Assembly (NCBI RefSeq): GCF_004345365.1
Contig: NZ_SLVF01000018.1
Coordinates: forward strand, 1 to 64,000
Length of the DNA: 64,000 bases
From: Kribbella sp. VKM Ac-2568
GTDB lineage: Bacteria; Actinomycetota; Actinomycetes; Propionibacteriales; Kribbellaceae
Reading direction: 5' to 3'
Shown: positions 28,049-44,315 of the stretch, one piece after another
How the letters are laid out: each line of letters opens with the position of its first letter
Numbering within the stretch: position 1 is the stretch's first letter
The notes under the pieces: model-generated
Seen by the model: the letters and a program-made list of their open reading frames with translations, nothing else
What the model was told of the DNA's origin: nothing
Databases searched by the model: none
Program-made: the position numbers and the translations under genes

Positions 28049-30262
28049 CTAGCGGACCACCAAGGTCGCCGTGGCCTGGTGGCCGAGCGATGTGTTGGTA
28101 CCGGTCACCTTGAGGGTGAAGGTGCCGCGGGCCGTGGCCGAGGTCGTCTTGACCTTCAGCGTCGCCCATCCTGGAGCGACGACGGGATTGCCGGTCCAGG
28201 TCGCCGACGAGTTGACCGGCAGGCCCGTGATCTTCAGCGAGACCGAGCCGTTGAAGCCACCGATCGACGACACCGCGACTGTGTACGTCGCAGTTTGCGT
28301 CCGCGTGACGCTGATCGAGGCCGGGCTGATCGTGACCGCGAAGTCGCGCGGATTCACGACCAGAGTCACAGTGACCGCATGACCGAGCGCTCCGCTGCTC
28401 GCGGTCACGGTGACCGGATAGCTGCCGCTCGCGGCCGCAGCCTGCGTTGTGATGCTGAGCTGCGCCGTCCCCTCACCATGAACGACCGCAGGACTGAAGG
28501 TCGCAGTGCCTACGGCCGTTGGCAGGCCGCCGGCCGTCAAGGTGACGTCACCGGTGAACCCGTTGAGAGCAGACACGCCGATGGTGTACGTCGCCACGGC
28601 ACCGGCGGAGACGGTCCGGCTGGACGGCGTGGCCGCCACGGTGTAGTCCGGCGGTGGCACAACGGTGAGTGAGGCCAGGACCGAGCGAGTGGTGGTGCCG
28701 CTGGTTCCGGTGATGGTCAGCGCACTGGAACCTGTCGTGGCCGGGGCCACCACAGTCAGGCTGGAGGTTCCGCTGCCGCCGGTGACGACCGGCGGATCGA
28801 AGGTCGCGGTTCCACCGGCCGGCAGCCCGGTCAGCGAGAGCCCGACATCATCCGAGAATCCGCCGCTCCCACTGACTGTCACCGTGTACTGCGCGCTGCC
28901 GCCGGGCTGCGTGGTCGCAGACGAAGGTGCAACTGCCACGGCGAAGTCCGGTGTGCTCCGCAGCCAGTTGTACGACGCCAGTACGTCGAGTCGTCCGGAA
29001 CCGTAACTGTTGTCGGCGCCGGCGGGTCCGAGGTCGACCGCACCCTGCTGCAGGGCAGAGACCTGCCGGTCGGCGGTCAACCCGGGCATTGTCTGCAGCA
29101 GCAGGGCAAGCGCTCCCGCGACGTGGGGTGCGGCCAACGAGGTTCCCGACGCGTCGAGGTAGCCGCCGTACAGGTCCGTAGTGCGGATATCGGTGCCAGG
29201 GGCCACCAGTTGCGGGTAGCCCGCCTGACCGCAGGCGGACGGTCCACGGCTGCTGAACGGGGCGATCGTGTCGGTGTCGTCGACCGAGCCGACCGCGAGC
29301 GCCTCCGGGTTGTTGGCGGGACTGGCCGACGTACCGGCGGTCGGACCATAGTTGCCCGCGGCAAAGACCGGCACGATGCCGGCCGCCCGGAGGTTGCGCA
29401 GATCGGGCTGGAAGTCGAGGCTGCAGCTTCCCGCCGCCATGGTCCAGGAGTTGTTCACCACGTTCGGGGCGTCGGCGGTGGCCGGGTTGCCGTCGGGATC
29501 CAGCAGCCACTGGTAGCCGAGATGGATCCCCGTCGAGGTCGCCTGGCCGCGGTCGTTGAAGATCTTGACCGCGATCCACCGGGCGTCCGGCGCGACGCCG
29601 ACCGACGTGCCGCCGCCGTCACCGCCGACCATCACGCCCATCGTCTGGGTTCCGTGACCGAACACGTCGGTCGGCGTTGACGGGTGCTGCCCGTTCGGGT
29701 CGTACCAACTGTTCGCACCACCACGCCAGCGAACGGCCAACTCCGGATGGCTGAGATCGACACCGGTGTCCATCGAGGCGACCACCATCCCCTGGCCGCG
29801 GTAGCCCAGGTCCCACAGCGCCGGCGCGTTCACCTGGGCGACGTTCGGCTCGGCGGCCGAGGCGGTGGTGACCGCCGGCGCCTGGATCGTCGAGTCCGGA
29901 CGGACCGCACCGACCTCCGGCCGGCGGGCGAGTTCCGCCGCCACGCTCGCGCGGACCCGGGCCCCGATCGCGTTGGTGATCCACAGCGGTACGACGGAGG
30001 TCACCCGCCCCTGACCCCGGCGTACGGCGAGCAGGTCCCGCGCGCCACGCTGAGTCCTGGTCGCGTGGTCCCGCAACGTCTTCTCCAGCGACCGGAGTCG
30101 CTCGCGGCGATCCGGCGAGACCACCGGGCCAGGCACGACCTGGGACTTCATCACCACGATGACGTCGACGAAGGGGTCGGGCTGGGGAGCGGCCCAAGCG
30201 GTTCCCGAGAGGCCGAGAGCGGTGACCATCGCGATCACCAGCGGCCGGCAGCGCACCATCAT
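28049..30262 (-). CDS. Secreted subtilisin-like protease with three Ig-like repeats
   Basis: This 737-residue S8 peptidase has a signal peptide (cleavage likely after AWA, about residue 25), a propeptide-like region, and a catalytic domain with Asp 165 (SMDTGVDLSHPEL), His 203 (GHGTQTMG), the oxyanion Asn 304 (AAGNYG) and Ser 375 (GTSLAAPHVAG). The C-terminal part from about residue 445 is three repeats of about 95 residues, each starting xDFAV/DYTV and ending in a TLVV-type strand, probably Ig-like surface-binding modules. ATG 30262 follows AGGAGG by 6 nt and overlaps the copCD stop by 4 bp; an upstream GTG in frame is less likely. Coupling to copCD ties it to the copper locus, possibly as a maturation or processing protease. 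Confidence 0.9.
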   Translation of the reverse strand: MMVRCRPLVIAMVTALGLSGTAWAAPQPDPFVDVIVVMKSQVVPGPVVSPDRRERLRSLEKTLRDHATRTQRGARDLLAVRRGQGRVTSVVPLWITNAIGARVRASVAAELARRPEVGAVRPDSTIQAPAVTTASAAEPNVAQVNAPALWDLGYRGQGMVVASMDTGVDLSHPELAVRWRGGANSWYDPNGQHPSTPTDVFGHGTQTMGVMVGGDGGGTSVGVAPDARWIAVKIFNDRGQATSTGIHLGYQWLLDPDGNPATADAPNVVNNSWTMAAGSCSLDFQPDLRNLRAAGIVPVFAAGNYGPTAGTSASPANNPEALAVGSVDDTDTIAPFSSRGPSACGQAGYPQLVAPGTDIRTTDLYGGYLDASGTSLAAPHVAGALALLLQTMPGLTADRQVSALQQGAVDLGPAGADNSYGSGRLDVLASYNWLRSTPDFAVAVAPSSATTQPGGSAQYTVTVSGSGGFSDDVGLSLTGLPAGGTATFDPPVVTGGSGTSSLTVVAPATTGSSALTITGTSGTTTRSVLASLTVVPPPDYTVAATPSSRTVSAGAVATYTIGVSALNGFTGDVTLTAGGLPTAVGTATFSPAVVHGEGTAQLSITTQAAAASGSYPVTVTASSGALGHAVTVTLVVNPRDFAVTISPASISVTRTQTATYTVAVSSIGGFNGSVSLKITGLPVNSSATWTGNPVVAPGWATLKVKTTSATARGTFTLKVTGTNTSLGHQATATLVVR

Positions 30263-32022
30263 CCTGAACCTCCTCTGGACCTGCGAAGGAACCACCAGGT
30301 GAAGGCCACCAGCGCCCCTTCGAGCAACAACAGAGCTGCGACATCGACATACGGCGCCAGGGGGCGGCCCGACGCGACTGGCGACTCAACCGGCGCCACC
30401 TGCCAGTCGAGTGGTACTGCGTACTCGTGGCCGGCACGGTGCACGACTGCGACCAGTCGCAGAGCTCCGGCAGCCTCGGCCTGATAGGTGGCGAAGTAAC
30501 GAGTGCCGGTCAGCCGCTCGAGGGCCACGGTCCGACCACTCGGTGCCACGCCGAACAGCAGATCGACCTGGTCGATCGGCGCCGGTGAAGGTCGCCGACT
30601 GCTCTCCGCGATGACCGTGAACCAGTTCGCTCCCGGCTGGTTCGGCGTCGCCGAGACCGTCACCACGAGGTCGGCGACGGATCCACTGCGGGTCAGGGCG
30701 GTCCGGTCGGCCGGCCCGTCGGCGCTGGAGAAGCCGGGCGAAGCATCGGAGACGCTTGCCGCGGCGCCGAGCGGCGGTGGCTGGTTGACGAGCGCGGCGA
30801 CGGCGACCAGCAGCACCAGACCTACACCGGTCTCCACCGCGATCGTGCGAGCCGGCCGCGGCCGCTGCCGCAGCCGTCGGGCGTTGATCAGTCCGAGGAC
30901 ACCCATCGCCGCCAGCAGGCCGGTCTTGAGCAACAGCAGACGTCCGTACGACGAGGCGACCAGGCTGCTCGTGGTGGCGACCTGGAGGCCGGCACTGTAG
31001 AGACCCGTCACCAGCAGGAGCAGAACGCTGCCCCCGGCCAGAACCGAGAACGGTCCGCGACAGCTCCTGACGAGCAAGGCGAGGTCTGATCGGGATCGGC
31101 CTCGTGGCCAGAGAACAACCAGCAGTGCGGGCACTGCGCCGAGCCAGAGCAACCCTGTGAAGGCATGAACCGCGCCGGCGACCAGGGCCGCAAAGCGCCC
31201 CGACGGCAGAGCCGCTGCATGACTGCCGAGAGCTTCGACCCACATAAGCAGGCCGAGCAGCGCGACGACGGCGAAAGCGAGCTGCCACCGCCGGCGACCC
31301 TGCCGGCCCAGCAGCACCACCAGGACGCACAGCAACGCCAGCGCGACCGTATGAACGATCCAGAGCCGTCCCCAGTCCCCACCGAGTACGTCGGTGAACT
31401 CGGACGCTCTGACCAGCAGATCCGCGATGCTGATGAGCAATGCCATCAGACCGGCCGCCAACGCGGTGGTCAGGAGCCGTCGGCGAGCAGTTGCGAAGAC
31501 GGAGGCCGGATCCTCCCGTCGGCCGAGGACCAGCAGGTAGACCGCCAGCGGGCCGACCAGACCGGCCAACGAGGCCAAGGCGGCCCACCGTCGTAGCAGT
31601 TCGGTGGACGATCCGCCGGCGGACTGCAGGAAGGCACTGGCCGCGCCGATGGCGAACAGCACCGTTCCGTTCGTCGCGTGGCCGTCCTCGGCCGACACGG
31701 CTTCCCAGACAAGTCCATAAGAACCAGGCGCCAGCCGTGGCAGCACGACTGCGATCACCCGCGGATCACCGGACCCCACGACAAGCCGGGTGCCTGAGAC
31801 GTTGGCACCCCGCTGGTCGATCAAGCGCGCCGTACTCCGGCTCGGCGCCATCTCGTCGCTGAACCAGAGCCTGGCCAGGCCAGGAGACTCGGCGAGCACA
31901 GCTCCGCTGGCCGGATCCGCCCGGACCAGCACGGTGTGCGCCGCGGCCGTGGACGGCGACAGAACGATGATGATGGCAACGGCAACAGCAAGGGCCAGCA
32001 TCACCAAGCAGCGATGCCGCAC
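30259..32022 (-). CDS. CopC-CopD copper-binding/transport fusion
   Basis: This 587-residue protein has a signal segment, then a CopC domain whose mature end begins at AAA-HTVLVRADPASG; the N-terminal His after cleavage is the Cu(II) histidine-brace ligand of CopC proteins, and EDGHATNG later supplies the matching Asp-x-His. About eight membrane helices of the CopD type follow (residues of about 140-395), then an extracytoplasmic YtkA/FixH-like beta domain (about 430-545) and a last membrane helix. The start GTG 32022 is preceded by GGAGGGG. It probably handles copper at or across the membrane. It is the first gene of the leftward unit and is divergent from the surface-protein/cupredoxin operon. 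Confidence 0.9.
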   Translation of the reverse strand: MRHRCLVMLALAVAVAIIIVLSPSTAAAHTVLVRADPASGAVLAESPGLARLWFSDEMAPSRSTARLIDQRGANVSGTRLVVGSGDPRVIAVVLPRLAPGSYGLVWEAVSAEDGHATNGTVLFAIGAASAFLQSAGGSSTELLRRWAALASLAGLVGPLAVYLLVLGRREDPASVFATARRRLLTTALAAGLMALLISIADLLVRASEFTDVLGGDWGRLWIVHTVALALLCVLVVLLGRQGRRRWQLAFAVVALLGLLMWVEALGSHAAALPSGRFAALVAGAVHAFTGLLWLGAVPALLVVLWPRGRSRSDLALLVRSCRGPFSVLAGGSVLLLLVTGLYSAGLQVATTSSLVASSYGRLLLLKTGLLAAMGVLGLINARRLRQRPRPARTIAVETGVGLVLLVAVAALVNQPPPLGAAASVSDASPGFSSADGPADRTALTRSGSVADLVVTVSATPNQPGANWFTVIAESSRRPSPAPIDQVDLLFGVAPSGRTVALERLTGTRYFATYQAEAAGALRLVAVVHRAGHEYAVPLDWQVAPVESPVASGRPLAPYVDVAALLLLEGALVAFTWWFLRRSRGGSG

Positions 32023-32101
32023 GGCTCCCCCCTCCCGCCGGCACCGAAGCAATCACGCCGACAGCCCGACGATAGGAACCACCGTCGTGGTTCGGCCCGT
32101 T

Positions 32102-37538: not shown

Positions 37539-37595
37539 AGCGAGCGTGAAGTTGCCATGAGCAAACAGCGAGCAGGCGCTCCGAGGGAGGACGCG

Positions 37596-38867
37596 ATGGC
37601 ACCGCAGAAGGCCGGCCTGGGACGCCGGGGTTTCCTGAAGGCCACCGGGCTCGGTGCCCTGGGCACCCTGGCCGCCGGCGGGGTGATCCAGGCCGTCGGG
37701 ACCGCCTCCGCGGCCACCACCACGCTGGCCCTGGCCGCGACCGACGGGTATGTCGTGGTGCCTGGCCGGGAGAACGACCCGCTGTACATCTTCGGGTTCA
37801 TCCCGGTCAGTCCGACGGCCACCGTCGACGCGCTGGTCCAGCAGTACAAGGGACATGCGCAGACCAGCGCACCGACGCTGGACTTCCGGCAGAACGACGA
37901 CATCAAGATCACCCTGACCAACCTCGGCCTGGTGCAACGCCCTGACCTGACCGACTCGCACACGATCCACTGGCACGGCTTCGACACCCCGTCACCGCTG
38001 AACGACGGCGTCCCCGAGGTGTCCGTCGCGGTACCGATCAGCCGGCAATTGACGTACTTCTACCGGCCGCACCGCGAGGGCACGTACATGTACCACTGCC
38101 ACTTCGAGGACGTCGAGCATGTGCAGATGGGCATGACCGGCATCGTGTTCGTGCGCCCGCTCCAGGACGGTACGTCGATCGGGGGTTTCTCCCACTTCGC
38201 CTACAACGACGGTGACGGGTCGACCGGCTACGACCGGCACTTCGCGATTCTGCTGAACGAGTACTGGAGCACCTTCCACGATGGCGACCGCGACATCCAA
38301 GAGTCGATCGCCACGGACTACGAGCCGCAGTGGTTCACTCTGAACGGCCGCTGCTATCCGCAGACACTGTTGCCGAACGACGACCCCGCGCTGCCCGCGT
38401 CGCTGCGGATCGCCACTCCGAACGCGAACTACGATGACGCGCCCGACTACAGCCTGCCGAACTCGGCGCTGGTCCAGGTGAACCCAGGTGACCGGGTCCT
38501 GCTCCGGCTGGCGAACCTGGGCTACCAGCAGCATGCGATGCAACTGCCCGGCCTGCCGATGCACGTGATCGGGCAGGACGCCTCGCTGCTGCGCAACGGC
38601 ACCGTCGACACGTCGTACTGGACCAACACGCTGTACATCGGGCCCGGCGAGGCCAGGGACGTGCTGTTCGACGCTCCTGCCTATGCGGCAACGCGGCCGT
38701 CCGGCTCCGACAGCCGGGGCAGCTACAACGTCTACTACTTCAAGAACCGGGACTGGCGCAGGTTGTCCAGCCTCGGCGCGCCCGGCCCCAGCGGGATGAT
38801 GACCGAGGTTCGGGTGTACCAGAACCCGTTGCCCCCGCAGACCGCCGTGAGCCAGACCTATGTCTGA
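37596..38867 (+). CDS. Two-domain multicopper-oxidase-like protein 1 (domain-1 ligands)
   Basis: This 423-residue protein has a Tat signal (RRGFLKATG, residues 10-18) and two cupredoxin domains. Domain 1 keeps a full set: HTIHWH (residues 122-127, HxxHxH) and HCH with Cys 168, then His 175 and Met 180 (pattern C-x6-H-x4-M), so it can bind a type-1 copper plus half of a type-2/3 cluster. Domain 2 has lost the usual HPxHxH (it reads QHAMQLPG) and the last HCH (it reads YYFKNRDW, though GMM remains). Alone it cannot form a trinuclear site. The start ATG 37596 follows GGGAGG by 5 nt. It lies between the surface-protein gene and cupredoxin protein 2. Confidence 0.9.
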   Translation: MAPQKAGLGRRGFLKATGLGALGTLAAGGVIQAVGTASAATTTLALAATDGYVVVPGRENDPLYIFGFIPVSPTATVDALVQQYKGHAQTSAPTLDFRQNDDIKITLTNLGLVQRPDLTDSHTIHWHGFDTPSPLNDGVPEVSVAVPISRQLTYFYRPHREGTYMYHCHFEDVEHVQMGMTGIVFVRPLQDGTSIGGFSHFAYNDGDGSTGYDRHFAILLNEYWSTFHDGDRDIQESIATDYEPQWFTLNGRCYPQTLLPNDDPALPASLRIATPNANYDDAPDYSLPNSALVQVNPGDRVLLRLANLGYQQHAMQLPGLPMHVIGQDASLLRNGTVDTSYWTNTLYIGPGEARDVLFDAPAYAATRPSGSDSRGSYNVYYFKNRDWRRLSSLGAPGPSGMMTEVRVYQNPLPPQTAVSQTYV

Positions 38868-38880
38868 CCAGGAGGCGACG

Positions 38881-40881
38881 ATGACACGCAGGACGATGCC
38901 ACGCTTCCGCCGGGTGATGGTCGCGCTGGCCCTGGCCGGCGGCGTCGCAGTACCGGCCTCGCTGCACGCGAGCGCGCTGCCGCCGGACGCCCCACCGATC
39001 GGCATGATCTGTACGCCGGGCACCGTGGCGGGCTCGACCCACACGTTCAACCTGGTCGCCAAGTCGGGCACCATCGACACCCCGGACGGCAACAGCGTCT
39101 TCATGTGGAGCTACGCCAACGCCGACGCCCCGGACAACGGGCACTTCCAGAGCCCGGGTCCGGTGCTGTGCGCGACGCAAGGTCAGACGGTGGTCGTGCA
39201 CCTCAGCAACACCTTGCCCGAGGCAACCTCCATCGTGTTTCCCGGCCAGGACGCCACCGTCACGGCCACTGGTGGAACCCCGGGACTGCTCACGACCGAG
39301 GTCGCTACGAGCGGCACGGTCACCTACACCTTCGTAGCGGGTCAGCCGGGCACCTATCTGTACGAGAGCGGCTCGGACGTCGTCAAGCAGGTCGAGATGG
39401 GATTGACCGGCGCACTGGTGATCCGGCCGGCGCTCGGAGCCGACTACGCCTACGACACCGGAACCCGTTTCGACCCGGCGCGGGAGTACCTGCTGCTGCT
39501 GAGTGACATCGATCCCGATCTCCACCACGCCGTCGAGGTAGGCGCGACGTACGACGTGAACACATTGCGGAACAGGTACTTCGCCATCAACGGCCGGGAG
39601 TTCCCGGACACCATCCAGGACAACGGCTCGGCCCTGCTGCCGAACCAGCCCTATGGTTCGCTCGTCCGGATCCAGCCCAACACGGCGACGAACGCCCGGC
39701 CGGCGCTGGTCCGGATGATCAACGTCGGGGCTGTGAATCACCCCTTCCACCCGCACGGTAATCACACCCGCCAGATCGCGCAGGACGGCCGGCTGATCGC
39801 ATCCACCGAGCACTTCGGCGAGACGATCGGTTCCGGACAGACCGAGGACTACCTGCTCCGCTGGGACGACCAGGACAACTGGGACCCGGCCACGAACCCG
39901 CTGCCGGTGGCTCAGCCGAACTACCGCAACCTGTTCTTCAAGGACGGCAACACCTGGTACAGCGGCAGCCCGTATCTGGGCAGCAAGGGCACGCTGCCGG
40001 TCGGCACCACCTCGCAGAACCTCTGCGGTGAGTGGTACTTCCCGCTGCACAGCCACGCGTTGAACGAGTTCACCAACTTCGACCAGGGGTTCGGCGGGAT
40101 GGGCACACTGCTCAGGGTCGACCCGCCTGGCGGCTGCTTCGGTTCGCCGACCTCGACAGGGCTGATCGGCGCCACCCTCAAGTCGGGAGCTGTCACCGCA
40201 CTCGGACTGGCGGACGGCACCTACTACCAGGTCAACCCGAAGACGACGACACGACCGACAGCGACCACTGCTGCCCAGACCAGCATCACGGTCGCCTCCG
40301 CGGCAGGCTTCCCGACCAGCGGACCGTACTTCGTCCGCGTCGACAACGAGATCCTGCAGGTGACCGCCGGGCAGGGAACCACCACCTGGACCGTTGCTCG
40401 CGGCCAACTGGGGACGACAGCCGCGGGCCACGTCACCGGCTCCACGCTGACCGCACTGGCCACGGACTGGTACGGCGCGTTCGGCGGTGTCCCGGCCGGT
40501 AGCCAGAACCTCAAGGTGCTCTACAAGGGCCGCAACTGCGGTGTCACCACCACCGCCACCTGCCCGGTGCTGCCCTCCAACTTCCCCCAGCAGACAGTCA
40601 AGGTCTGCAACTGGACGATCGCAGGCGCCGGGGGCTGCAGTAACGCGACTTCCACGGGCTGGACGACGTTGCCGGCACCGCCTGCGCAGCCGCAAGCAGT
40701 CGGGTCGACGGATCTGAGCTCGACCTGGACGCTGCCCGGACCGGCCGACGCCTACATCGGCACCGGTTCGTACAAGGGGCAGATCCGGGTGCTGGTCCAC
40801 ACCCAGCGCTTCACCCCCACCGCACCGGTCGCGTTCTCCACCTGGGGCGACCTGATGAAGATCGTGTACGACGCGCCATGA
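38881..40881 (+). CDS. Two-domain multicopper-oxidase-like protein 2 (domain-2 ligands)
   Basis: This 666-residue secreted protein has an N-terminal signal and two cupredoxin domains. Domain 1 has lost its copper ligands (VFPGQD in place of HWHG, YESGSDVVKQVEMG in place of YHCH...H..MG). Domain 2 keeps NHPFHPHG (His 287, 290, 292) and LHSHALNE (His 390 and 392) but has Ser 391 where the type-1 Cys would be. It therefore offers exactly the half of a trinuclear site that protein 1 lacks. About 245 further residues follow, including a tail-fibre-like strip (TSITVASAAGFPTSGPYFVR) and a Cys-containing end. ATG 38881 follows GGAGG by 5 nt; the frame is open 7 codons upstream into the previous gene. 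Confidence 0.88.
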   Translation: MTRRTMPRFRRVMVALALAGGVAVPASLHASALPPDAPPIGMICTPGTVAGSTHTFNLVAKSGTIDTPDGNSVFMWSYANADAPDNGHFQSPGPVLCATQGQTVVVHLSNTLPEATSIVFPGQDATVTATGGTPGLLTTEVATSGTVTYTFVAGQPGTYLYESGSDVVKQVEMGLTGALVIRPALGADYAYDTGTRFDPAREYLLLLSDIDPDLHHAVEVGATYDVNTLRNRYFAINGREFPDTIQDNGSALLPNQPYGSLVRIQPNTATNARPALVRMINVGAVNHPFHPHGNHTRQIAQDGRLIASTEHFGETIGSGQTEDYLLRWDDQDNWDPATNPLPVAQPNYRNLFFKDGNTWYSGSPYLGSKGTLPVGTTSQNLCGEWYFPLHSHALNEFTNFDQGFGGMGTLLRVDPPGGCFGSPTSTGLIGATLKSGAVTALGLADGTYYQVNPKTTTRPTATTAAQTSITVASAAGFPTSGPYFVRVDNEILQVTAGQGTTTWTVARGQLGTTAAGHVTGSTLTALATDWYGAFGGVPAGSQNLKVLYKGRNCGVTTTATCPVLPSNFPQQTVKVCNWTIAGAGGCSNATSTGWTTLPAPPAQPQAVGSTDLSSTWTLPGPADAYIGTGSYKGQIRVLVHTQRFTPTAPVAFSTWGDLMKIVYDAP

Positions 40882-40910
40882 CCAGGCACGAGCGGCAAAG
40901 GAGATGGGCG

Positions 40911-41885
40911 ATGCGTACATCCGTCCACCGCAGGACCCGGGTCCTGGTGGTGCTCTTGCTGGCTACCTTCGGCCTGAGCTGCGTGGGCAGTTCGGCCTCG
41001 GCCGCGACGATCTCGATCGAGCTGTGCGCCGTCACGGGAACGGCCCCGCTACCCGGTGGCGGAACGGTCCCGATCTGGGGGTTCGGCATCCCGGCTGCCA
41101 CGGGTGACTGCAGCTCCGCGACCGCGAGCCTGCCCGGACCGCAACTCGCGGTCGACCAGGGCGACCTGGTCACGATCACGGTCCGGAACGCGCTGCCGCC
41201 CGGACACGCGGTGTCCTTCGAGATCCCCGGCGTGACCTTCGATCCCGGGCCGGCCGACGCGGCCCCAGGCGCGGCTGTCAGCCGCTCCTTCACGGCCGGC
41301 CGGCCCGGCACCTACCTCTACCAGAGCGGCGGCAACGCGGGCCGGCAGGAGGCCATGGGCTTGTCCGGCGCGCTCCTGGTCCGCTCGTCGGTTCCCGGTC
41401 AGGCCTACGGCACCCCCGGCACGGCGTACGACGTCGAGGCGGTCCTCGTGCTGATGGCGATCGATCCGGCCTTCAACGCGGCGCCGGACACGTTCGACCT
41501 GCAGAACTACCGGGCGACGTACTGGCTGATCAACGGGAAGGGCTACCCGAACACCACGCCGATCAGCGCGGCCGCTGGGCAGCGGGTGCTGCTGCGGTAC
41601 CTCAACGCCGGCTACGACAACACGTCGATGACACTGCTCGGTACGCATCAGCAGGTCGTCGCCCGTGATGCCCGATTGCTGACGAACGCCTTCCCTGCCG
41701 GCACGGAGACGATCCCGGCCGGTGCCACTGAGGACACCGTGGTGACCGTGCCCGCCGGCAGTCCGCCGAGTAGTCATGGATTCCCGCTGTACAACCGGCA
41801 ACTGCACCTGACCAACGGACCTCAGACCGGTACTTCGCCGACGCCGGCGACCGGTGGCGGCATGCTGACCTTCATCCAGCCATGA
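40911..41885 (+). CDS. Two-domain cupredoxin protein 3, copper ligands lost
   Basis: This 324-residue secreted protein has a signal peptide (ending SSASA) and the same two-domain layout as proteins 1 and 2. Domain 1 reads AVSFEIPG and YLYQSGGNAGRQEAMGLSG; domain 2 reads NTSMTLLGTHQQVVARDA and LYNRQLHL. No HxH or HCH remains, so it should not bind the usual coppers and may be a structural subunit. ATG 40911 follows AAGGAG by 7 nt; an upstream ATG overlapping the previous stop has no binding site. Its stop overlaps the next gene by 4 bp. Confidence 0.85.
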   Translation: MRTSVHRRTRVLVVLLLATFGLSCVGSSASAATISIELCAVTGTAPLPGGGTVPIWGFGIPAATGDCSSATASLPGPQLAVDQGDLVTITVRNALPPGHAVSFEIPGVTFDPGPADAAPGAAVSRSFTAGRPGTYLYQSGGNAGRQEAMGLSGALLVRSSVPGQAYGTPGTAYDVEAVLVLMAIDPAFNAAPDTFDLQNYRATYWLINGKGYPNTTPISAAAGQRVLLRYLNAGYDNTSMTLLGTHQQVVARDARLLTNAFPAGTETIPAGATEDTVVTVPAGSPPSSHGFPLYNRQLHLTNGPQTGTSPTPATGGGMLTFIQP

Positions 41886-42430: not shown

Positions 42431-43531
42431 TCACCGTCCGGTCGGCACGGTCAGCTCGAACCTGGCGCCACCGTCCAGACTGGTCATCGCCCGGAGTACT
42501 CCCCCGTGGGCCTCCGCCACCGCCTTCGCCATCGGCAGGCCCAGACCGCTACCCATCGGGCCGTCGGGCGGCCGGCGATGCCAGAAACGCTCGAACACGT
42601 GCGGGAGCTGCTCGGCCGGGATGCCCGGCCCTGAGTCGTCGACCGTGATCATGTACCGGTCCGGCATCGCAATACAGCCGAGTCTGATGGTGTCGCTCGG
42701 TCCGGTGTAGTGCACCGCGTTCTCGATCAACGCGTCCAACGCGAGCTCCATCCACTCCGGATCGCAGTCCACTACGCGCGTCGGCAGGCAGCTCACCACC
42801 CAGTGCCGATCGGTACCGGCACTCCAGTTCCGGCCGATCTGACTGACCAGCGCACCGATGTCCGTACGCCTCATCTCGAGTTCTTCGCCGGCGTCCAGCC
42901 GGGCGAGTGCCAGTAACCGGTCGGACAACGCGGACATCCGCTCGAGCTGGTGGACGGCGATTCCGATGCGCTGGCTCTCGACCGCCGGGACCGGACCGGT
43001 GGCGGCGAGTTCGAGCTGACCGCGAGCGATCGTCAGCGGCGTACGGAGGGCGTGCGAGGTGTCCCGGAAGAAGCCGCGCTCGCGCTCCAGACTGGCCCGG
43101 CGCTGGTCGGCCATCAGCTCGACCTGCCGCAGGGCGGCGACCCGGCGGCGAGCGTGCCAGACCATCGCCACGAAGAGCGCCGGCATCAGGGGCACCTCCG
43201 CCAGCTCCGCCCGGTCGATGATCCCGCTGAAGGCGTGCGAGCCGAGGATCCAGCCGGTCGCTCCCGTCACCGCGAGCGTCACCAGGACGGTCGGCCACAG
43301 CGGCCAGACCCTGAAGCCGTAAACGATGGTGAGCGACAGGAAGAGGATGTGGTAAGGAATCGTCTCCTGACCGGGCATCCTCACCATCAGCACCAGCATC
43401 GCGATGATGATGGCCGCCAGCGCGCCGTCCACCAACTGCTCCCCGCGCGTGGTCAGACGCCAAGGGTTGGTCTGCTGCGCCGCCGGGGTTCCGGCGCTCT
43501 GGTCACGCTGTTTGTAGCTGATAACCGACAT
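42431..43531 (-). CDS. Sensor histidine kinase of copper locus
   Basis: This 366-residue kinase has about four membrane segments in residues 35-127 with only short loops between them, so it probably senses within or at the membrane. The H-box is RDTSHALRTPLT (His 160). The ATPase part has N (LIENAVHY), G1 (DDSGPGIP) and G2 (GSGLGLPMAKAV) boxes. A Met-containing segment (MLVLMVRMPG) lies in the first membrane region. The start overlaps the response-regulator gene by 29 bp, so the pair is co-translated. Copper or redox sensing is inferred from its neighbours. Confidence 0.9.
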   Translation of the reverse strand: MSVISYKQRDQSAGTPAAQQTNPWRLTTRGEQLVDGALAAIIIAMLVLMVRMPGQETIPYHILFLSLTIVYGFRVWPLWPTVLVTLAVTGATGWILGSHAFSGIIDRAELAEVPLMPALFVAMVWHARRRVAALRQVELMADQRRASLERERGFFRDTSHALRTPLTIARGQLELAATGPVPAVESQRIGIAVHQLERMSALSDRLLALARLDAGEELEMRRTDIGALVSQIGRNWSAGTDRHWVVSCLPTRVVDCDPEWMELALDALIENAVHYTGPSDTIRLGCIAMPDRYMITVDDSGPGIPAEQLPHVFERFWHRRPPDGPMGSGLGLPMAKAVAEAHGGVLRAMTSLDGGARFELTVPTGR

Positions 43532-44168
43532 TGCGCACCGTCCGGATGACGTCGTCGCGCAGCTTGGCCCGGAGCCGGCCGACGCAGACGTCGACGAGGT
43601 TCGTCGACGGGTCGAAGTCGTAGCCCCAGACCTCCGAGAGCAACTCCTGGCGCGAACACACGATGTCCGGGTTTCGCATCAGGTGCTGCAACAGCAGGAA
43701 CTCGCGCTGCGACAGCTCAGCCGTCCGCCCGCCGACCTGCAACAGACGGGTGCGCGTGTTGAGGACGATGGCCCCGACCCGCAGCACGTCGGACGGCCGG
43801 GCCACCGGCTCGGCAAGCAGCCGCGACCGTACCCGCGCGATCAGCTCGCGGAGCAGGAACGGCTTGGCCAGGAAGTCGACCGCGCCCTCCTCGAGGCAGG
43901 CGACCCGGGCCTGCTTGTCCTCCGTCGCGGACAGGACCAGGATCCGCGTGGTCGGGTCGTGCGCCATCAAGGCCGTGAGCACCGCCTGACCGTCGAGCCC
44001 CGGCATCAGCAGATCGAGGACCACCAGGTCGACCTTGGTCGTCAGCGCCACCCGGAGCCCTTCGGTGCTGTCGATCGCGGTCAGCACGTGATAGCCCTCG
44101 GCCTCCAGCGCGTGGCCGACAAAACCCAGCAGATCCGGCTCGTCGTCAATGACGAGAATCCTGGTCAT
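43503..44168 (-). CDS. OmpR-family response regulator of copper locus
   Basis: This 221-residue regulator has a receiver domain with VIDDE (residues 6-10), phosphoacceptor Asp 52 (VVLDLLMPGLDG) and Lys in FLAKPF, followed by a winged helix (LSQREFLLLQHLMRNPDIVCSRQELLSEVWGYDFD). ATG 44168 follows GAGGGGG. It partners the kinase that follows. A CATGACCG word 22 bp upstream is shared with the divergent copper promoter, so it may control itself and both copper transcripts. Confidence 0.93.
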   Translation of the reverse strand: MTRILVIDDEPDLLGFVGHALEAEGYHVLTAIDSTEGLRVALTTKVDLVVLDLLMPGLDGQAVLTALMAHDPTTRILVLSATEDKQARVACLEEGAVDFLAKPFLLRELIARVRSRLLAEPVARPSDVLRVGAIVLNTRTRLLQVGGRTAELSQREFLLLQHLMRNPDIVCSRQELLSEVWGYDFDPSTNLVDVCVGRLRAKLRDDVIRTVRNVGYQLQTA

Positions 44169-44189
44169 CGAACCCCCTCGGCCGTGATG

Positions 44190-44197
44190 CATGACCG
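44190..44197. promoter_or_regulatory. CATGACCG box upstream of response-regulator gene
   Basis: The word GCATGACCG at 44189-44197 matches the reversed copy at 32184-32192 exactly, and CATGACCGG at 44190-44198 matches the forward copy at 32102-32110. It lies 22-29 bp upstream of the response-regulator start. Confidence 0.45.
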
Positions 44198-44315
44198 GGC
44201 ACACAGCATGCCAGGCACCGTCGTCCGAACAGCGCCAGGCCGGGGCCCCCACCGATCTGCCTACCCAGAGTCATTCTGTTCTGCCTGAGCGTCCAGCGGA
44301 AGAGTCTGACCGGTC

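Follow-up and report, generated by a model that had tools for sequence, protein, structure and literature searches.

Copper ligands of the multicopper oxidase type are divided between adjacent two-domain cupredoxins in Kribbella and in homologous loci of four phyla

Genes at the locus

The window analysed here is a stretch of 64,000 nucleotides from Kribbella sp. VKM Ac-2568, which forms part of contig 18 of an 8.9-Mb genome. The list of open reading frames shows five genes on the forward strand, P0 to P4, arranged head-to-tail with their ends overlapping or close together (Table 1). The P1 and P2 frames overlap by 8 bases and the P2 and P3 frames by 4 bases. P1, P2 and P3 alike matched multicopper oxidase families in Pfam. 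The start of P1 is ambiguous: it lies either at 37557 or at the in-frame ATG at 37596, which was used in a first-pass annotation made from sequence alone. The three cupredoxin frames lie at the places given in that annotation.

P0 carries SdrD_B and fn3_3/carboxypeptidase-regulatory-like domains and a C-terminal right-handed beta-helix/NosD-like region (Pfam, NCBIfam). Only the window's nearest loci, among them those of Kribbella and Actinoplanes, have the C-terminal extension of P2. Genes for a histidine kinase and a response regulator lie on the other side of P4.

Table 1. Positions of the cupredoxin trio, its neighbours and its copper-ligand motifs in the window
Feature	Position	Strand	Description	Basis
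S8 subtilase	28055..30295	-	conserved neighbour	
CopC-CopD fusion	30265..32052	-	conserved neighbour, about 50 loci	
P0	32175..37538	+	1787 aa, surface/scaffold-like	Pfam, NCBIfam, gene order in relatives
P1	37557..38867	+	two-domain cupredoxin with Tat signal; T1 and half of the trinuclear set in domain 1	
P1 H135-T-I-H138-W-H140-G	37959..37979	+	T1 His and two trinuclear His; invariant in 101 P1 homologues	
P1 H180-C181-H182...H188...M193	38094..38135	+	two trinuclear His and T1 Cys, His and Met	
P2	38860..40881	+	two-domain cupredoxin with Sec-type signal and C-terminal extension; other half of the trinuclear set in domain 2, no T1	
P2 H294-P-F-H297-P-H299-G	39739..39759	+	trinuclear His are H297 and H299	
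P2 H397-S-H399	40048..40056	+	two trinuclear His; Ser at the T1 Cys position	
P2 C-terminal extension	40132-40881			
P3	40878..41885	+	ligand-free two-domain cupredoxin paralogue	
P4	41882..42367	+	small protein with N-terminal hydrophobic segment; matches no known family	
Histidine kinase and response regulator genes	42434-44252	-	convergent with P4	

Distribution of the ligands over P1, P2 and P3

On inspection of the sequences, neither HxH motif was present in domain 2 of P1 or in domain 1 of P2, and P3 had no copper-ligand motif in either of its domains. The H397 motif of P2 aligns with the HDH motif of 3g5w, and its H294 motif aligns with the HxHTHG of the same protein. The position of H294 itself is occupied by His or Tyr among the relatives, as expected since P2 has no type-1 (T1) copper site. 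Added up over P1, P2 and P3, the ligands amount to eight trinuclear His and one T1 set.

The first-pass annotation had claimed that P1 keeps its domain-1 motifs and lost both domain-2 motifs, and that P2 lost its domain-1 motifs and keeps HPFHPH and HSH in domain 2. Both claims held exactly. Its count of eight His and one T1 site spread over P1 and P2 held as well, and proved to be nearly invariant among the homologous loci.

Conservation of the division across phyla

Motif words taken from P1 served as probes for a search of 84,980 species genomes, which yielded 79 loci. Those nearest to the window are also from Kribbella, with P1 identities of 86 and 85%. The gene order P0-P1-P2-P3-P4 was kept wherever the contig was long enough, with the Bacillota loci being without P4. 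P3 adjoins P2 in nearly all loci. In many of them it is longer by several hundred residues, or even by more than 2000, while the Bacillota P3 has no extension.

Probes made of P1 motif words favour loci with an intact P1. To counter this bias, we ran a P2 profile over whole genomes in samples of three phyla. A P2 orthologue or a divergent relative was found in 8 of 301 Chloroflexota genomes, 18 of 348 Bacillota genomes and 2 of 349 Pseudomonadota genomes. The loci retrieved in this way had P1 and P3 alongside and an identical ligand split, except for L167, where the contig starts within P2. Probe bias is thus ruled out as the source of the apparent split, since the P2-profile search gives the same result.

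In the merged alignment, the four domain-1 trinuclear His of P1 were present in 101/101, 101/101, 100/101 and 101/101 sequences, and the T1 residues H/C/H/M in 101/101. The domain-2 trinuclear His of P2 were present in 100/100, 100/100, 99/100 and 99/100 sequences. The opposite positions (domain 2 of P1 and domain 1 of P2) are essentially never His, and both domains of P3 have lost their ligands. Since the ligand columns are conserved across homologues, a chance origin of the split is excluded.

Exact complementarity was observed in 97 of the 99 loci that have both P1 and P2, and these come from Actinomycetota, Chloroflexota, Bacillota and Pseudomonadota. The two remaining loci are L017, which is a truncated contig, and L047, in which Leu replaces one trinuclear His. 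About 100 loci keep the ligand set, at an identity of about 45%. The first-pass annotation had proposed a genome search for the trio and its complementary loss, and would have been refuted by homologous loci in which P1 or P2 alone carries all four motifs. The loss turned out to be conserved, and no orthologous locus was of the refuting kind.

A very divergent trio together with P4, with the same split, is found on the megaplasmid of Cupriavidus metallidurans CH34 (L223) and in Paraburkholderia (L224). P3 is 2698-2723 aa long in these two loci, and the Paraburkholderia record labels the trio members as hypothetical proteins.

Phylogeny, single-chain relatives and loss of P2

In the phylogenetic tree, P1, P2 and P3 form one clade each, with support of 0.986, 0.977 and 0.994. 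This means that P1, P2 and P3 arose by a single divergence and have stayed together since.

Beyond the orthologous group there are related single chains that bear all four motifs. These are the two-domain proteins of L180 and L181 and, in Bacillota, a family with lengths of about 510-560 aa, and they likely resemble the ancestral homo-oligomeric type. One member of the Bacillota family (L187, 9833-11236) lost two domain-1 trinuclear His (TNC2 and TNC4).

Another relative (L182, 575-2866, reverse strand) is a 764-aa chain of four domains with a plastocyanin-like C-terminus. It has T1 and four His in the first domain and four His in the fourth, which is the P1/P2 pattern in one polypeptide. We rejected a direct fusion of P1 and P2 as its source, since its two halves group together outside P1, P2 and P3 in the tree. 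An independent second origin of the complementary pattern is possible.

In one locus (L185, G745:C37, 6617-8689) the P2 gene is missing between intact P1 and P3 genes, and a genome search did not find P2 elsewhere in that genome. The P1 of this locus carries H138Y, H140E and H182Y, so that three of its four trinuclear His are lost, and retains the T1 residues H135, C181, H188 and M193. Seven other invariant residues are gone too, and general decay may contribute to the ligand loss. A further locus (L186, G870:C81, 4582-6040) is decayed, with a broken P1 that kept its domain-1 ligands, a missing P2 and only the second half of P3.

Structure models

Several genomes have P1 and P2 (and P3) in one frame, so that reading through the stop joins them by a linker of 59 residues, and we used such fusions for modelling. 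The P1-P2 read-through fusion of L066 was predicted by AlphaFold2 with pLDDT 90.4 and pTM 0.89 (68-row alignment), and the P1-P2-P3 fusion of the same locus with pTM 0.84 (35 rows). The three-unit alignment used (A5) contained only read-through rows and P1 rows. Since an unknown relative placement would give a far lower pTM, the placement of the units is confident, and the model predicts that P1 and P2 are placed confidently against each other. His-His distances were not measured. The idea of the first-pass annotation that the P1 and P2 half-sites come together is supported by the confident joint placement, and the meeting of the His is unproven without the distances.

When the fusions were compared with ceruloplasmin in collinear order by Foldseek, the local similarity was highly significant, yet the TM was 0.27 and 0.20. 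Such low values indicate that the units do not follow the gene order round a ring. Only two orders are possible for a ring of three units, and with the collinear one excluded, domain 2 of P2 would face domain 1 of P1. The three-unit model superposes on the three-domain Thermus laccase with a target TM of about 0.7. By our inference, made without aligned ranges, this match would require that domains belonging to different units are arranged as in an oxidase.

The nearest solved folds are the type-C two-domain oxidases 2zwn and 3g5w, with Z of about 30. The VIA-align lists were filled by single two-domain chains and are therefore uninformative on the arrangement between units or on the absence of ceruloplasmin.

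Covariation between domain 1 of P1 and domain 2 of P2 was threefold enriched. We rejected it as independent evidence, since shuffling the partners within clades gives the same ratio (2.8-3.2). No enrichment was seen in the 20 Bacillota loci alone. The covariation reflects divergence at the level of clades.

Export signals and conserved neighbours

In almost all loci outside Bacillota, P1 has a twin-arginine signal, and P2 and P3 have hydrophobic Sec-type signals. P4 is co-conserved in these loci. In the Bacillota loci (L153-L169, L077, L081, L083-L087), P1, P2 and P3 have no signal peptides, and P4 is absent. This pattern by lineage means that the trio members share one compartment in every lineage. 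The Bacillota trio could be made of spore-coat or exosporium proteins, which is a guess. Several of the Bacillota carriers look anaerobic.

Where the sequence of a homologous locus reaches far enough, P0 nearly always lies directly upstream of P1, and we infer that it is likely a scaffold. The genes for the CopC-CopD fusion and the S8 subtilase adjoin P0 in the window and recur beside the trio, on either side, in Actinomycetota and Chloroflexota. It is likely that CopC-CopD supplies copper and possible that the subtilase takes part in surface processing. The copper route is inferred, and the neighbours are merely consistent with it.

Proposed enzyme

With the ligand distribution, its conservation, the gene linkage, the fold assignment and the signal-peptide pattern shown, we consider it most likely that P1, P2 and P3 together make up a single, obligately heteromeric multicopper oxidase, derived from a homotrimeric type-C two-domain oxidase. 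The contact between the subunits, the reduction of O2 and the stoichiometry are inferred. Two-domain oxidases form their trinuclear centre at a subunit interface, where domain 1 of one chain meets domain 2 of its neighbour (PMC13151041). By inference, domain 1 of P1 would face domain 2 of P2 and the 4 + 4 His would hold the trinuclear cluster. We infer this contact because of the homology, the pTM values and the exclusion of the collinear order. The suggestion of the first-pass annotation that a heteromeric enzyme is structurally reasonable is supported in this respect, while a 1:1:1 stoichiometry and enzyme activity are unproven.

In the proposed enzyme, electrons of the substrate would enter at the T1 copper of P1 and would go via Cys181 to the flanking His180 and His182 of the trinuclear centre, where the cluster is inferred to reduce O2 to water. 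P3, having lost all ligands, would complete a pseudo-threefold 1:1:1 ring with the units arranged as P2-P1-P3. Export in most lineages would use Tat for P1 and Sec for P2 and P3. Since the subunits leave by these different routes, the active site would be assembled only beyond the membrane, and the neighbouring CopC-CopD would deliver the copper. As a first guess at the substrate, the enzyme might be a surface metal oxidase (for Cu, Mn or Fe) anchored by P0.

A bolder reading is that the trio forms an obligate 1:1:1 heterotrimer, a "ceruloplasmin in three chains" built of type-C units, whose sole trinuclear centre is common to two gene products, of which one leaves the cell folded through Tat and the other through Sec. 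We lean slightly towards this reading. Since the ligands are split over P1 and P2, a functional homotrimer would be impossible if all eight His are needed.

Some observations speak against the oxidase reading. The anaerobe-looking Bacillota carriers make an O2-reducing enzyme less expected, L047 has Leu at a trinuclear His, and the P1 of L185 may simply be decaying.

Alternative explanations

The first alternative is that P1 and P2 share the centre as a heterodimer or a larger P1/P2 oligomer, and that P3 is an accessory or anchor outside the ring. This would fit with the lack of ligands in P3 and its long extra residues in many loci, and the P1-P2 model is confident by itself. However, P3 keeps the two-domain core and adjoins P2 nearly everywhere, including the extension-free P3 of Bacillota, the three-unit model is also confident, and the relatives are trimers. 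We therefore regard this alternative as unlikely.

Less likely still, in our opinion, is that the centre is shared and serves something other than O2 reduction with substrate oxidation, for example nitrogen oxides or copper storage. The carriers that look anaerobic would speak for such a role, and nitrite reductases have the same fold. However, P1 has the oxidase-type H-x-H and HCH and not the Asp/His and HCA of nitrite reductase, and all eight oxidase His are kept.

It is very unlikely that we are looking at separate copper proteins, each in its own homotrimer, with P1 as a blue-copper carrier with a vestigial half-site and P2 as a type-2 or dinuclear protein. Each half-site could bind copper alone, and P1 has the full T1 set. 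However, the four trinuclear His of each protein are, but for the exceptions given above, invariant in four phyla. A four-His half-site which points to the interface is meaningful only with its complement. Moreover, the P1 of L185 lost trinuclear His along with the P2 gene and kept T1.

Finally, degenerate or non-functional oxidase duplicates, in which motif loss is common and to which the partly decayed L185 and L186 could point, are all but excluded by the retention of the exact ligand set at the identity and over the loci and phyla given above.

Comparison with known multicopper proteins

To our knowledge, every multicopper oxidase described so far, whether monomer or homotrimer, has all copper ligands on one chain. 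We found no description of a heterotrimeric or split-ligand multicopper oxidase in the open-access literature searched, which does not cover subscription papers, and within that literature nothing contradicted the first-pass annotation, which knew of no described oxidase that splits its ligands in this way. If the proposed reading is true, the trio would be the first case in its superfamily of a catalytic centre that is heteromeric, and this centre would be conserved in four phyla or more. It would also mean that paralogues can divide up the interfacial site of a two-domain oxidase. Surveys that demand all four copper motifs in one protein would then have passed over an enzyme that is widespread. 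The versions from Bacillota, which have no signals, suit co-expression in E. coli, and Cupriavidus metallidurans CH34 is available as a laboratory strain in culture.

The closest known systems are the type-C oxidases 2zwn (mgLAC) and 3g5w (Nitrosomonas europaea blue copper oxidase), which are the best matches of the trio in both fold and sequence. Like the trio members, they have two cupredoxin domains per chain, and like P1 they have T1 in domain 1. Their homotrimers consist of chains that each bear the full set of motifs, whereas the trio divides the motifs between P1 and P2 and leaves P3 without any. NirK resembles the proposed ring in being a trimer of two-domain units with T1 in domain 1 and an interfacial copper. 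However, it is a homotrimer with a single type-2 copper, Asp at HxxD, and HCA, while P1 has an invariant HxxHxH and HCH.

Oxidase chains are also known to associate with different subunits. In the heterodimeric fungal laccase-like POXA3 (PMC10741624), an oxidase chain is joined by a different subunit, as in the trio. The small subunit is described there as a stabilising protein of unknown function. It is not known to contribute copper ligands. The Mnx complex MnxE3F3G (PMC5622069) is, like the trio, a multi-protein multicopper oxidase complex, but MnxG alone is the multicopper oxidase chain in it.

Ceruloplasmin and MnxG of Bacillus (Mnx structure 9bxa) have six cupredoxin domains and a single trinuclear centre, most sites having been lost in the duplicates, and the trio would be alike if its units assemble 1:1:1. 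The difference is that ceruloplasmin and MnxG are each one polypeptide, whereas the trio is encoded by three open reading frames, both in the window and in almost every relative. The place of T1 also differs: it is in domain 2 of MnxG and in domains 2, 4 and 6 of ceruloplasmin, and in domain 1 of P1 in the trio. In bacterial MnxG-type proteins, a single chain holds T1 in its domain 2 and has the trinuclear centre between domains 2 and 3 (PMC3600357). We therefore rejected the trio as a split MnxG/MofA on the basis of the T1 position and the single-chain design given in that paper, without an alignment to MnxG itself. The step that lies between homotrimers and six-domain chains like those of ceruloplasmin and MnxG has so far been drawn only as a hypothetical scheme (PMC3600357), and if our reading is true, the trio would be the separate-chain counterpart of that step.
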